Assembly (NCBI GenBank): GCA_000980495.1
Contig: LARN01000020.1
Span: forward strand, 1-41,165
Reading direction: 5' to 3'
DNA: 41,165 nucleotides
DNA from: Acinetobacter sp. N54.MGS-139
Lineage (GTDB): Bacteria > Pseudomonadota > Gammaproteobacteria > Burkholderiales > Burkholderiaceae_F
Part shown: positions 34,559 to 40,884 of the stretch, piece by piece
Numbering within the stretch: the first letter of the stretch is position 1
How the letters are laid out: each line of letters starts with the position of its first letter
Position numbers and translations under genes: made by a program
Notes under the pieces: model-generated
What the model saw: the letters and a program-made list of their open reading frames with translations, nothing else
What the model was told of the DNA's origin: nothing
Database searches by the model: none

Positions 34559-36580
34559 ATGAGCCCTACGATGGAGACGCCGATGTACGTCATCAAGCGT
34601 GACGGCACGGTAAAAGACTTCGATATTTCAAAAATTGCAGCCGCCCTCGAAAAAGCCGGTAAAGCTACCGGTGAATTCGATGCAGCGACCGCAAACCGCA
34701 TCACTCATATCGAAGTGATGAACCGTCTGGCTCAGCAGAATGTTGCGACTCCTACTATTGAACAGATTCAGGACGCCGTAGAAAACGCGCTCTTTGATAC
34801 CGGATTCCGTAAGACTCTGCGTGCTTATATTGTTTATCGCGAACAGCGTGCAAAGGCTCGCGATGCCCGTCGCAGTCTCGTGGATGTCGAAAGCTCCATG
34901 AATGAGTATCTGCAGCATCTGGATTGGCGTGTGAATGCCAATGCCAACCAGGGCTATTCTTTGGGCGGTTTGATTCTTAACGTTTCCGGTAAAGTCGTGG
35001 CCAACTATTGGCTCAACTATATTTATCCTCCGGAAGTCGGCAACGCCCACAGACAAGCCGATATCCACATCCATGACTTGGATATGCTTTCCGGATACTG
35101 CGCAGGATGGTCTCTTAAGACACTTTTGAATGAAGGTCTGAACGGCGTTCCGGGCAAAGTTGAAGCCGGTGCTCCGAAACACTTAACCAGTGCTGTCGGA
35201 CAGATCGTTAATTTCCTCGGCACCATGCAGAATGAATGGGCCGGTGCTCAGGCTTTCAGCTCTTTTGACACCTACCTCGCCCCTTTCATCCGCATCGACA
35301 ACCTTGATTACAAGGAAGTCCGTCAGTGCATTCAGGAACTCATTTACAACCTGAATGTCCCGAGCCGCTGGGGTACACAGACTCCGTTTACAAACCTGAC
35401 GTTTGACTGGGTCTGCCCGCAGGACCTTCGCGATCAGCATCCTTTGATCGGCGGAGAAGAAGTTGATTTCACGTACGGTGAGCTCCAGAAAGAAATGGAC
35501 ATGATCAACCGTGCGTATATTGAGGTCATGCTTGAAGGCGACGCTAAGGGCCGTGTATTTACATTCCCGATCCCAACATACAACATGACGCCGGATTTCA
35601 ATTGGGACAGCCCCAACGCACATCTGCTTTTCAGCATGACAGCCCGCTATGGTCTGCCGTATTTCCAAAACTTCATCAACTCTGAACTCAAGCCGAACAT
35701 GATTCGTTCGATGTGCTGCCGTCTGCAGCTTGACTTGAGAGAGCTGCTGAAACGCGGCAACGGACTTTTCGGCTCTGCCGAACAAACCGGTTCCTTAGGC
35801 GTTGTGACAATCAACTGCGCTCGTTTGGGTTATGTTTTTGCTCAGGACGAAGAAGGTTTGTTCAATCGTCTGAACTATCTGCTTGACTTGGCCCGCAACA
35901 GCCTGGAGATTAAGCGCAAGATCATTCAGCGCCATATGGATCAGGGCCTGTTCCCGTATACAAGACGTTATCTCGGCACGCTGCGTAATCACTTCTCTAC
36001 GATCGGTGTGAACGGCATCAATGAAATGATCCGCAACTTCACACAGGACAAAGAAGATATTACGACGGAAGCTGGCCACGCCTTTGCCGCCAAAGTGCTT
36101 GATTTCATCCGCGACAAGATGGTCATGTTCCAGGAAGAAACAGGACACATGTACAACCTCGAAGCCACACCGGCTGAAGGTACAACTTATCGCTTTGCCA
36201 AAGAAGATAAGAAGCGCTTCCCGAAGATCCTTCAGGCCGGTACGCCGGATCATCCTTACTACACCAACAGCTCTCAGCTGCCGGTCTCCTATACGGACGA
36301 TCCTTTCGAAGCTTTGGAAATGCAGGAAGATCTGCAGAAGAAATACACGGGCGGTACCGTACTGCATCTGTACATGAACGAAGCCATTTCGAGCCCCGAG
36401 CTCTGCCGCGACATCGTTCGCCGTGCTCTGACACGTTTCAGACTGCCGTACATCACCATCACACCGACGTTCTCAGTTTGTCCGAAACACGGTTATATTC
36501 CTGGCAATCATGAGTTCTGTCCGAAGTGCGACGCAGAATTGATTGCCAAGAAGAAGCTGGAAATGGCTTCCAACGGTTAA
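34559..36580 (+). CDS. nrdD: Anaerobic ribonucleoside-triphosphate reductase, catalytic body lacking the glycyl-radical tail
   Basis: Class III ribonucleotide reductase makes deoxynucleotides without oxygen. The 673 residues begin with an ATP-cone (about 8-95, YVIKRDGTVKDFDISKI), then the ten-stranded barrel with TPFTNLTFDW and the active-site SMCCRL (C386, C387). The C-terminus has the zinc site CPKH (C641, H644) and CPKC (C654, C657), but stops sixteen residues later. The glycyl-radical segment that normally follows is missing and lies in a separate small gene downstream, in another frame. AAGGAGA eight bases before the ATG supports the start. No formate-linked feature can be judged. The gene is preceded by the AT-rich region. 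Confidence 0.92.
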   Translation: MSPTMETPMYVIKRDGTVKDFDISKIAAALEKAGKATGEFDAATANRITHIEVMNRLAQQNVATPTIEQIQDAVENALFDTGFRKTLRAYIVYREQRAKARDARRSLVDVESSMNEYLQHLDWRVNANANQGYSLGGLILNVSGKVVANYWLNYIYPPEVGNAHRQADIHIHDLDMLSGYCAGWSLKTLLNEGLNGVPGKVEAGAPKHLTSAVGQIVNFLGTMQNEWAGAQAFSSFDTYLAPFIRIDNLDYKEVRQCIQELIYNLNVPSRWGTQTPFTNLTFDWVCPQDLRDQHPLIGGEEVDFTYGELQKEMDMINRAYIEVMLEGDAKGRVFTFPIPTYNMTPDFNWDSPNAHLLFSMTARYGLPYFQNFINSELKPNMIRSMCCRLQLDLRELLKRGNGLFGSAEQTGSLGVVTINCARLGYVFAQDEEGLFNRLNYLLDLARNSLEIKRKIIQRHMDQGLFPYTRRYLGTLRNHFSTIGVNGINEMIRNFTQDKEDITTEAGHAFAAKVLDFIRDKMVMFQEETGHMYNLEATPAEGTTYRFAKEDKKRFPKILQAGTPDHPYYTNSSQLPVSYTDDPFEALEMQEDLQKKYTGGTVLHLYMNEAISSPELCRDIVRRALTRFRLPYITITPTFSVCPKHGYIPGNHEFCPKCDAELIAKKKLEMASNG

Positions 36581-36633
36581 GAAACAGTAAAGATTAATTT
36601 TTTAGGATTGATTTATTCACACAGGAGACTGCA

Positions 36634-36813
36634 ATGAATGAAAATGTTAAAGACACAAACATCGAACTGAAGGACGAAGAACGCACAAAATGCGAAATCT
36701 GGACCCGTGTAATGGGTTATCACCGTCCGATTTCTTCTTTCAATATCGGCAAGCAGGGTGAATTTGCAGAACGTAAATACTTCGACGAAAAGAAGTGCGG
36801 CTGTAGCAAGTAA
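36634..36813 (+). CDS. Stand-alone glycyl-radical domain of class III ribonucleotide reductase
   Basis: A 59-residue protein starting at ATG 36634, six bases after CAGGAGA. It contains RVMGYHRPISSFNIGKQGEF, which matches the C-terminal glycyl-radical motif of NrdD; G28 would carry the radical. A CEIW before it resembles the segment that follows the zinc site in full-length NrdD, and the end KKCGCSK holds a Cys-Gly-Cys pair. The gap to nrdD is 53 bases, the frame differs, and the ribosome binding site is good, so this is not a simple stop mutation. It would dock into NrdD and be activated by NrdG. It is comparable in concept to YfiD, the spare glycyl-radical part for pyruvate formate-lyase. 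Confidence 0.9.
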   Translation: MNENVKDTNIELKDEERTKCEIWTRVMGYHRPISSFNIGKQGEFAERKYFDEKKCGCSK

Positions 36814-36831: not shown

Positions 36832-36876
36832 CCTCTCGTTGCTTCGCGCTTCGAGAGGTTTTTTGTTTTGATTTTT
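36832..36876 (+). terminator. Strong terminator between the glycyl-radical gene and nrdG
   Basis: CCTCTCG (36832-36838) and CGAGAGG (36852-36858) form a 7-bp stem, followed by TTTTTT, then further T runs up to 36876, five bases before the nrdG ATG. It should reduce transcription into nrdG. Confidence 0.85.
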
Positions 36877-37706: not shown

Positions 37707-37808
37707 TAAACTCGGAATAGAGAAGCACTGATCTCAACTTCGGCGGCATCTTTTCTCCGGGACAAATCTCCTTGCTAGACTTTGACCAATCTTTTTCGGA
37801 GCTTTTTC

Positions 37809-38435
37809 ATGAAAAACAACGGCAGCTTCAAAAACGCCGGATCTTCCCGCGCCAAGATGTGGAGAAACATCCTCTTGATATTGGGAGCTGTCGCTCTTAT
37901 CGCCAGCTATTTTGCTGATATTCGCGATCCGCATCCCGGGACCGAAACTCAGGACAATCGGCCGTACGTTGAACAAGCTCATAAAGACGGGTTTCAAACA
38001 CTGCATGCCCGCGTTACTCGTGTTGCCGACGGGGATACTGTTTATATCAAGGATGACGAAGGAAAAGAAGCTCGCGTTCGACTTCTCGGGATCGATGCGC
38101 CGGAAAGCAAACAAGCCTATGGTGTCCAAAGTGCCGAACATTTGAAGCGCAATCTTCGGGATGCTGGGTATCACGTTCAAGTGATTTACCGCGGCAGAGA
38201 TCAGTACGGCAGAATCATCGGTAAATTGGTTGCTGACGGAAAAGATCTGAATCTCGATCAAGTCAGAACTGGAAATGCCTGGGTCTATAGAAATTATTTG
38301 CGTGACCTTCAGCCCGGAGATAAAAATCTATATCTCAACGCAGAGGAAAACGCTCGTGCCAAGCGAATCGGTTTGTGGGCCGATCCGAATCCGCAGAATC
38401 CTCGGGATTGGAGAAGAGATCATCCGAGAAATTAG
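37809..38435 (+). CDS. Thermonuclease-family (SNase-like) nuclease, membrane-anchored or secreted
   Basis: A 208-residue protein with one N-terminal hydrophobic segment (about 19-36, after a basic start) that serves as anchor or signal. The staphylococcal nuclease fold follows: ARVTRVADGDTVYI, VRLLGIDAPESKQ with the catalytic Arg and Glu, and GRDQYGRIIGKLVADG with the second Arg. All expected catalytic residues are present, so a Ca2+-dependent nuclease acting outside the cytoplasm is likely. The ATG at 37809 has GGAG seven bases upstream; an in-frame TTG at 37782 is less likely. It stands as a single gene between two terminators. Confidence 0.85.
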   Translation: MKNNGSFKNAGSSRAKMWRNILLILGAVALIASYFADIRDPHPGTETQDNRPYVEQAHKDGFQTLHARVTRVADGDTVYIKDDEGKEARVRLLGIDAPESKQAYGVQSAEHLKRNLRDAGYHVQVIYRGRDQYGRIIGKLVADGKDLNLDQVRTGNAWVYRNYLRDLQPGDKNLYLNAEENARAKRIGLWADPNPQNPRDWRRDHPRN

Positions 38436-39123: not shown

Positions 39124-40701
39124 TTATCCGATATTGATCGGGCTATGAATGTTCTTTGCAAAAGCGCGAACATTAAAGCTTCGATTCCACATGAAGGCTA
39201 AGAAGCCGGCGAAGCAGACTGCTGTTGCGCCGAAGCTGATGATCCAGCTTCCTTTACTGAAGCCTGCAGCGACGTAACCAACGAAACAGCAGCAAGCCAC
39301 GAACCATGCGTAAGGCAGCTGTGTTGACACGTGCGAAATATGACTGCATCCGCTGCCCGCACTCGAAAGAATCGTTGTATCTGAAATCGGTGAGCAGTGG
39401 TCGCCGAAAACAGAGCCGGCCAGCGTGGCAGACAAACAGACGATTGTCAGAGAGGGGTCGACGGCTGCAGCAACCGGCACAGCGATCGGGATCAGGATAC
39501 CGAAAGTACCCCAGGCAGTACCTGTAGAGAAACTCAGGAATGCGGCAACGAGGAAGATCGCGGCAGGAAGGAAAAGGTCAAGACCGGAACCGCTGGAAAC
39601 CATACCCTGAACAAATGTCTGGGTAGTAAGCAGGTCGCGGCAAACACCGGAAAGCGTCCAAGCTAAAACCAAAATTACGTTGGCAGGAAGCATGAGCTTC
39701 ATACCCTCGATGGTACCTTCCATGAAGTTATGGAAAGAAACCACGCGGCGCGGAATGTACATGAGGAATGCAACGCCTAAAGCGCCGAAGGAAGCCCAAA
39801 CTAGAGCTTTGGAAGCGGAGCAGTTGCCGAGCGCGGCAGCGATGGTGTGGTAGGCAGCATCTTTTCCCCAGTATCCGCCGTCATAAAGAAGGGCCAGAAC
39901 AGCAAAAACGATCAAGGCAATGAGAGGAAGAAGCATGTCCCAAATCGTGCCTTTATCACTTTGCGCATGTTTGGGTTTCTCGGCGGTGGCTCCGCTGCCT
40001 TCATCCTCTACTGACTTAAGGAGAGCGTTTTCTTCTGCTTTTTTCATCGGACCGAAGTCACGATTGGTCCAGGAAAGATACAGAACCAAAAGCAGGCAGA
40101 AAATTGCGTAGAAGTTGTAGGGAATCGTCGAGACGAAAGCCTGGAAGTCGCTCTGGAAAGCGCCAGTTGATTTCAAAGAGCTTCCTACGGCGGCAGCCCA
40201 GGAAGAAACCGGAGCGATGATACACATCGGAGCTGCAGTCGAGTCGATGATGTATGCCAGCTTCTCGCGGGAGACACGATAAGAGTCGGTGAGCGGTTTC
40301 ATGACTGTACCGACCGTCAGACAGTTAAAGTAGTCGTCAATAAAGATGAAGAAGCTCAGACCGCAAGTAGCGAGAACCGAAGTTTCGCGGTTTTTGATTT
40401 TCCTGCGGGCAATCTCACCGTACTTCTTAGTGCCGCCGGACATGTTCAGAACATAGACAAGCGCACCCAAAAGAGTACAGAAGAGAAGAATCTGGAAGTC
40501 TACTTTTTGGCCCATGAGCGAAAAAGTGACATCAAGCATCTTGATTAGCGGATCGGGTACGCCAGAGCCGAAAGTGTATATGGCGGCGCCGGAAAAGATA
40601 CCGATTAACAGAGAAGAAAAGACTTCTTTGGTAATCAGAGCAAGGACGATAGCAATAATTGGGGGCAGGATTGATAACCAGCCGGCTGCATAAGGTTCCA
40701 T
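39124..40701 (-). CDS. NhaC-type Na+/H+ antiporter family protein
   Basis: A large polytopic inner-membrane protein, about 525 residues from the ATG at 40701 (MEPYAAGWLSILPP). It matches the NhaC-like antiporter family. Typical parts are SILPPIIAIVLALITKEV at the start, FIDDYFNCLTVGTVM with its conserved acids, and GDHCSPISDTTILSS near the C-terminus. About eleven hydrophobic helices can be traced; a charged cytoplasmic loop lies near the middle. Transport of sodium in exchange for protons, or of an amino acid or organic acid, is possible, since the family is broad. A longer in-frame start at 40794 lies across an inverted repeat and is less likely. Confidence 0.87.
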   Translation of the reverse strand: MEPYAAGWLSILPPIIAIVLALITKEVFSSLLIGIFSGAAIYTFGSGVPDPLIKMLDVTFSLMGQKVDFQILLFCTLLGALVYVLNMSGGTKKYGEIARRKIKNRETSVLATCGLSFFIFIDDYFNCLTVGTVMKPLTDSYRVSREKLAYIIDSTAAPMCIIAPVSSWAAAVGSSLKSTGAFQSDFQAFVSTIPYNFYAIFCLLLVLYLSWTNRDFGPMKKAEENALLKSVEDEGSGATAEKPKHAQSDKGTIWDMLLPLIALIVFAVLALLYDGGYWGKDAAYHTIAAALGNCSASKALVWASFGALGVAFLMYIPRRVVSFHNFMEGTIEGMKLMLPANVILVLAWTLSGVCRDLLTTQTFVQGMVSSGSGLDLFLPAAIFLVAAFLSFSTGTAWGTFGILIPIAVPVAAAVDPSLTIVCLSATLAGSVFGDHCSPISDTTILSSAGSGCSHISHVSTQLPYAWFVACCCFVGYVAAGFSKGSWIISFGATAVCFAGFLAFMWNRSFNVRAFAKNIHSPINIG

Positions 40702-40884
40702 GGTCGAAGGTTTAATTAAATTATTAATGGATATAGGCGATTGTAATTGATTGTTTTCGATCAACCCCGCATTTGCGGAAAAATTACCGCACAATCCGAA
40801 AATAAACCGTGATTAAGCGATACCAGGAACCTGTTTGTCAGTGATTTCGATTAAGGATATGGAGCGCAAGCATTGTCGCCCAAG

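Follow-up and report, generated by a model that had tools for sequence, protein, structure and literature searches.

Introduction

In one-chain class III ribonucleotide reductases the activase NrdG makes a glycyl radical on NrdD, and a cysteine of the finger loop is then oxidised. The radical domain of the Prevotella copri enzyme consists of a zinc site, the radical loop and the tail, and according to the available part of its description it becomes mobile with dATP (PMC11226230). MCCR is one of the two dominant finger-loop motifs of class III; in the excerpted source, the methionine of the loop is linked with formate use and a double cysteine with thioredoxin (PMC9669993).

Free-standing glycyl-radical proteins are known from pyruvate formate-lyase, for which YfiD (GrcA) of E. 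coli and Y06I of phage T4 act as spares. In the available sections of the 2021 paper only these two are validated, spares for other glycyl-radical enzymes are held to be possible, and YfiD is not detectably activated without its partner (PMC8683613). Both class III reductases and spare-part glycyl proteins are known as kinds. Here we describe a class III locus in which the catalytic body and the radical-bearing tail are encoded by two genes, and follow this arrangement through bacterial genomes, plasmids and viral contigs.

A class III reductase divided over two genes

In the window, i.e. the whole stretch of 41,165 nucleotides of a gut bacterium that was analysed, an nrdD body, a separate glycyl-radical tail gene and nrdG follow each other on the forward strand (Table 1). 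The NrdD is 99% identical to that of Parasutterella excrementihominis. The body matches PF13597 (NRDD, 562 positions) at 2-529 with E 1.1e-178 and the tail protein matches it at 531-562 with E 1.4e-7 and 31 bits (cut-off 26.2), so that together they cover one domain almost without a gap. The body has the features of class III: the NRDD domain, an ATP-cone, a PRK08270 match over the cut-off, the finger-loop cysteine motif and, nearby, a partner activase (NrdG2 over the cut-off). The glycyl-radical motif, however, lies on a separate ORF and not on the same polypeptide. The finger loop holds both the methionine and the double cysteine. Identity with the split class II reductase NrdJa+NrdJb was rejected, the body being NRDD and the tail carrying RVMGY.

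An earlier sequence-only reading had claimed that the body ends 16 residues after the CPKC of the zinc module, and that a 59-residue gene beginning 53 bases further on, in another frame and with a good ribosome binding site, encodes the missing tail (RTKCEIWTRVMGYHRP...FNIGKQGEF) with Gly28 of RVMGY as the radical glycine. Rereading the DNA gave the same picture in every point. An assembly error, which that reading had wanted excluded, is indeed excluded: the layout is found again in P. excrementihominis YIT 11859, whose sequence is a separate one with differences from the window inside the body, and in most relatives that were read.

Table 1. Features of the split nrdD locus, in positions of the window.
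Feature	Position	Strand	Details
nrdD body, encoding the catalytic chain (no glycyl-radical loop) of a class III ribonucleotide reductase	34559..36580	+	673 aa, 76.5 kDa; PF13597 2-529; PRK08270 1142 bits
ATP-cone, body residues 9-98	34583..34852	+	PF03477 E 1.6e-22
MCCR finger loop (residues 385-388), where the transient thiyl radical is expected	35711..35722	+	motif class from PMC9669993 (excerpt)
Zinc module CPKH...CPKC (C641, H644, C654, C657)	36479..36529	+	ligands predicted from sequence
AGGAG ribosome binding site of tail gene	36623..36627	+	six bases before ATG
Separate glycyl-radical tail gene, 59 aa	36634..36813	+	PF13597 531-562
Codon of radical glycine Gly28 in RVMGY	36715..36717	+	alignment via natural fusion L066
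Terminator-like hairpin then T run, between tail gene and nrdG	36832..36858	+	z -3.5; 1/200 shuffles as good
nrdG2-type radical SAM activase, 255 aa	36882..37649	+	NrdG2 over cut-off

The glycine was placed through a natural fusion of body and tail (L066), whose RVMGY aligns with the RITGY/RIVGY of solved NrdDs. In an AlphaFold model of this fusion (pLDDT 79, pTM 0.70) confidence falls below 50 at residues 671-685, which hold the radical glycine. Compared with P. copri, the split falls inside the glycyl radical domain and leaves the zinc part on the body. Between the end of the tail gene and nrdG there are 68 bases, and the hairpin found there was missed by a consensus scan for terminators. 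Further downstream the window encodes a staphylococcal-nuclease-like protein (37782-38435) and a Na+/H+ antiporter (39124-40794), neither with an evident link to nrdD.

The tail is, like YfiD/GrcA, a small free-standing protein with a glycyl-radical motif. Homology of the pyruvate formate-lyase type was not found: only PF13597 was listed up to E 10, in a search where the HMMER filters drop most matches above about 0.1. As the tail matches NRDD only, it should serve ribonucleotide reductase.

Conservation of the split

We read the best 80 of 477 relatives found in genome contigs. Two of these loci (L028, L031) are cut inside the body and the other 78 reach its end; a separate tail ORF follows in 70 of the 78, while one, L066, is fused. 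In seven no tail was seen: L007, L036, L038, L039, L040 (~3 kb downstream), L041, L047 (near contig end). Four Holosporaceae are among these loci, and their tails were not found.

The sequence-only reading had suggested looking in relatives for a conserved split, frame and spacing. The split is conserved, and the other two vary. Tails are distributed over the three frames relative to the body as 18/23/28 (69 loci; L062, whose body is broken, is left out), and the gap has a median of 49 nt (70 tails) and reaches 260 bases, or 664 in L062. An SD-like tetramer or longer lies within 20 nt upstream of 62 of the 70 tails, by a permissive pattern for which no control was run. These figures make it extremely improbable that recoding (frameshifting, stop readthrough or other) joins body and tail in one chain. 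Some genomes do have the two in one frame with a single stop between them (e.g. L148, L149), but use of all three frames, the longer gaps, tails with start codons of their own and tails lying far away or on other contigs (see below) speak against it.

A protein search with the tail gave, at E <=1e-3, 1931 clusters similar to it in length (the best 120 of 1931 shown), some of which may be fragments on short contigs. L074 has, besides the tail adjacent to its body, a second tail ORF on the opposite strand of the same 8-kb locus. L030 (labelled Coriobacteriia) and L057 (Lactobacillaceae) are MAG contigs whose NrdD bodies group with Proteobacteria; they are perhaps mis-binned.

Sequence gained at the break

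Fused forms give a reference for what the break has changed. The stretch between the last zinc cysteine and the radical glycine measures 14-15 residues in five of eight fused forms (L165, L179, L180, L181, L141), 20 in L166 and L167, and 26 in L066. In split enzymes, by contrast, the body runs on past that cysteine by a median of 18 residues (76 bodies), and the tail has a median of 26 residues ahead of the radical glycine (70 tails). The break has thus left each half with added sequence, which plausibly forms the interface of body and tail. A re-fusion is suggested for L066, which contains both added pieces and stands next to split Holosporaceae. In the tree the fused forms lie among the split ones, and well-supported branches force at least three changes.

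Further, free tails share a nearly invariant cysteine, placed eight residues ahead of the radical glycine in the motif CE[VI]WTRVMGY. All 53 viral tail matches and 68 of the 72 from hosts have it (the fused tail of L066 counts among the 72); four fused forms (L165, L179, L180, L181) lack it.

Breadth across Pseudomonadota and plasmids

A survey of 398 Pseudomonadota genomes was centred on the genome nearest to the window (G001), with the rest drawn evenly. The PRK08270-type enzyme is over the cut-off in 16 of them, split in 13 and fused in three (G136, G487, G223), or split in 12 of 15 when G001 is omitted; the call was made from profile ends and tail matches, and for 8 of the 16 genomes also from DNA. 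The split is therefore the commoner state of this subfamily among the 398 genomes and not an oddity of Sutterellaceae.

Plasmid records contain the split form in Cupriavidus necator, Sulfuricurvum, Bradyrhizobium, Paracoccus, Shinella and Azospira, and the fused form in Acidiphilium, Actinomyces oris and Geoalkalibacter. On the Azospira plasmid pAZI09 (L173) a class I and a split class III reductase are interleaved, in the order nrdA, nrdD body, tail, nrdG, nrdB. Allochromatium vinosum pALVIN01 has a tail gene (L168:4010-4219) with no annotated NrdD body within 4 kb in an incomplete gene table. Several small tail proteins are named 'nrdD, anaerobic ribonucleoside-triphosphate reductase' in RefSeq, so annotation does recognise the homology.

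A second split is seen in a distant NrdD. In G014 (L161) a PRK07111-type NrdD over the cut-off, 23-32% identical to that of the window, ends after the zinc cysteines and is followed by a 57-aa ORF with its own type of tail, RRITGYLVGT...WNNAKRAEERDRVKH. Judged by match rows, G015 has the same pattern, with a body of 1-531 and, 137 bases downstream, a tail frame of 58 aa; another copy of this second tail type was read on contig C90. Hence the break probably arose at least twice.

Other reductases in the same genomes

The sequence-only reading had named two cases that would speak against it: a full-length NrdD in all relatives with a frameshift in this genome, or a second, intact nrdD elsewhere in the genome beside a decayed copy here. 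This does not apply, since the nearest genome, G001, has no full-length NrdD; besides the split enzyme it holds only class I NrdAB, with the large chain over the NrdA-type cut-off. Class I NrdAB is also present in G003, G004 and G005. A class I reductase as a rule needs O2. For P. excrementihominis, which lives strictly anaerobically, this would leave the split enzyme as the sole reductase able to work without oxygen.

In the family of G001 we surveyed 67 genomes, 43 of which have NrdD matches. A full-length NrdD is present as well in 31 of the 43, and a class I/II-type gene in 49 of the 67, as would be expected if the split nrdD were decayed or misassembled and another reductase did the work. 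This explanation is nevertheless highly improbable: the same layout recurs in separate assemblies and complete plasmid records, and the motifs are intact. Further, five of the 43 (G002, G014, G015, G019, whose body is cut by a contig end, and G041) yielded no reductase other than the split class III enzyme; these genomes gave no match to PF02867 or PF00268, and may be incomplete. The pN/pS of tail cores is low, 0.16-0.30, a value biased downwards because the cores were extracted by motif.

In Cupriavidus necator nrdD is also split, into a body of 676 aa and 76.2 kDa and a separate tail gene of 66 aa. The abstract of a 1999 study of this organism (Siedow et al.) reportedly gives 76.2 kDa for NrdD, i.e. 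the body alone. Its nrdDG is said to be essential for complete denitrification, in the part of the source available (PMC2864759).

Tails apart from their bodies

Not all tails adjoin a body. In three family genomes (G040, G050, G053) nrdG comes directly after the body, and the single free tail of the genome lies 1.3 Mb from the body in G050 and on a different contig in the other two; each of the three has a full-length NrdD as well. L007, one of the closest loci in which no tail was seen, matches G040 in its body end. In G421 (L175:997-12425) tail and nrdG are clustered about 9 kb from the body.

An extra, unlinked tail besides the adjacent one is found in 12 of the 43 genomes (G001, G004, G005, G007, G008, G009, G011, G012, G013, G015, G016, G059). 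The extra tail of G059, at 23.9 bits, falls short of the cut-off, the one in G009 starts 292 bases into its contig, and the one in G015 is of the second type, belonging to PRK07111-type NrdDs. Four of the 12 are in prophage-like stretches: in G001, G004 and G005 they adjoin endolysin and Rz-like spanin genes, and in G059 integrase-like and Rz-like ORFs (judged by eye). Several extra tails in Aphodousia, P. secunda and their kin are near a phosphoribosyltransferase-like ORF, again by eye.

These copies bear on whether the small chain is exchanged at all. The enzyme might be a permanent two-chain one that assembles once, the product of a neutral gene fission with no role in repair. The tail mostly adjoins the body (70 of 78), and the fused forms scattered among split ones suggest that splitting may be near-neutral. 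Against this stand the 12 genomes with an extra tail, the three with an unlinked tail only, and the tail-only viral contigs described next; taken together we find a permanent pairing possible but rather unlikely.

Tails on viral contigs

A first scan of IMG/VR gave 54 loci with a tail. In 52 of them the NrdD body is absent from the fetched stretch (up to 5 kb on each side, with the tail within 500 bases of the start of that stretch in six loci); the exceptions are L089, which is split, and L141, which is fused. For 42 of these 54 loci the whole viral record was searched, and 40 have the tail only, although records may be fragments. In a profile scan, the best 80 of 211 relatives, a set that overlaps the first 54, include none with a body piece of more than 60 residues within up to 6 kb. 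The two viral nrdD genes also contain insertions: L141:868-3762 a clear intein with a LAGLIDADG domain, and L089:2383-4809 an inserted stretch that matches inteins weakly, below the cut-off (E 0.0022).

According to gene lists of 12 loci and to Pfam matches, viral tails occur near ThyA and DNA polymerase A (L106), ThyX (L138), SSB and a helicase (L135), and a phage lysozyme (L105). The tail matches positions 108-155 of the 179 of PHROG 4132, a family of unknown function. Among 50,697 named phage records only two match the tail, both in reductase genes, which counts against breadth.

Phage-borne tails could also be inhibitors or decoys that occupy the host body, since a tail that docks but resists activation would leave the enzyme blocked. 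We consider this quite unlikely, as the RVMGY core with its radical glycine is intact in 53 of the 54 viral loci (L136 has a stop), and the location of some tails beside thymidylate synthase or replication genes fits dNTP supply. On balance we lean towards a wider reading, in which class III reductase is widely a body with an exchangeable radical cartridge: phages of anaerobes would carry the cartridge alone (~44-75 aa), to dock on the host body, be charged by host NrdG and re-arm or boost the host reductase for viral DNA.

Proposed mechanism

Given the split, its conservation, the intact motifs and the unlinked and virus-borne copies, the locus very probably encodes a working two-chain class III reductase, in which the radical chain would dock, be activated by NrdG on the complex and be exchangeable. 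The small chain would then be to ribonucleotide reductase what YfiD and Y06I are to pyruvate formate-lyase. The body would supply the ATP-cone, the barrel, the finger-loop cysteines and the zinc module, and the 59-aa protein the radical glycine loop and the C-terminal tail. The small chain is expected to dock into the barrel, in the position taken by the tail in a one-chain NrdD. NrdG would then put the radical on Gly28 of the docked protein, from which it would pass to a finger-loop cysteine. The small chain may also leave the body. Since no covalent bond ties it to the body, a fresh copy could take the place of one that oxygen has cleaved, and such copies could come from other loci or from phage.

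That the catalytic centre is assembled from two chains, as the sequence-only reading had proposed, gains support from the conservation of the split with variable frame and spacing, the unlinked tails and the low pN/pS of the tail core. Its parallel with YfiD needs qualifying: the small free-standing radical protein is there, but since the body always lacks a tail, the small protein is an obligate subunit. True 'spares' would be the extra tail copies elsewhere in the genome and in phages.

The locus and its kin provide a natural, testable case in an enzyme that makes DNA precursors without oxygen, and a two-chain enzyme lets the radical chain be titrated, labelled or swapped. The same loci also offer a function for part of PHROG family 4132, and suggest how little a phage may need in order to take over anaerobic dNTP synthesis.

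Comparison with known systems

In the literature searched, part of it available as excerpts, neither an obligate two-chain form nor a lone radical chain on phages appears to have been described. Phage nrdD and nrdA genes split by inteins, introns and endonucleases are likewise broken reductase genes; their breaks are mostly inserted elements, and the available part of the source reports no conserved separate radical tail (PMC3653736). Split class II NrdJa+NrdJb also has a C-terminal reductase domain on its own gene, but according to the excerpted sources NrdJb is a cysteine-rich domain for re-reduction and no radical carrier, in a B12-dependent class II enzyme (PMC5704485, PMC9669993).

The one-chain NrdDs of known structure (T4, Thermotoga maritima, Prevotella copri and Streptococcus thermophilus) are alike in ATP-cone, NRDD barrel, finger-loop cysteines, zinc module, RVxGY-like glycyl motif and NrdG activase; the difference is that here the radical loop and C-terminal tail are a separate protein. 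YfiD/GrcA and Y06I share with the window's tail the form of a small stand-alone glycyl-radical protein, found in bacteria and in phage (PMC8683613, in part), and dock on the body of a large radical enzyme, as the window's tail presumably does. In their case the partner is a damaged enzyme, while the body of the window is born tailless.
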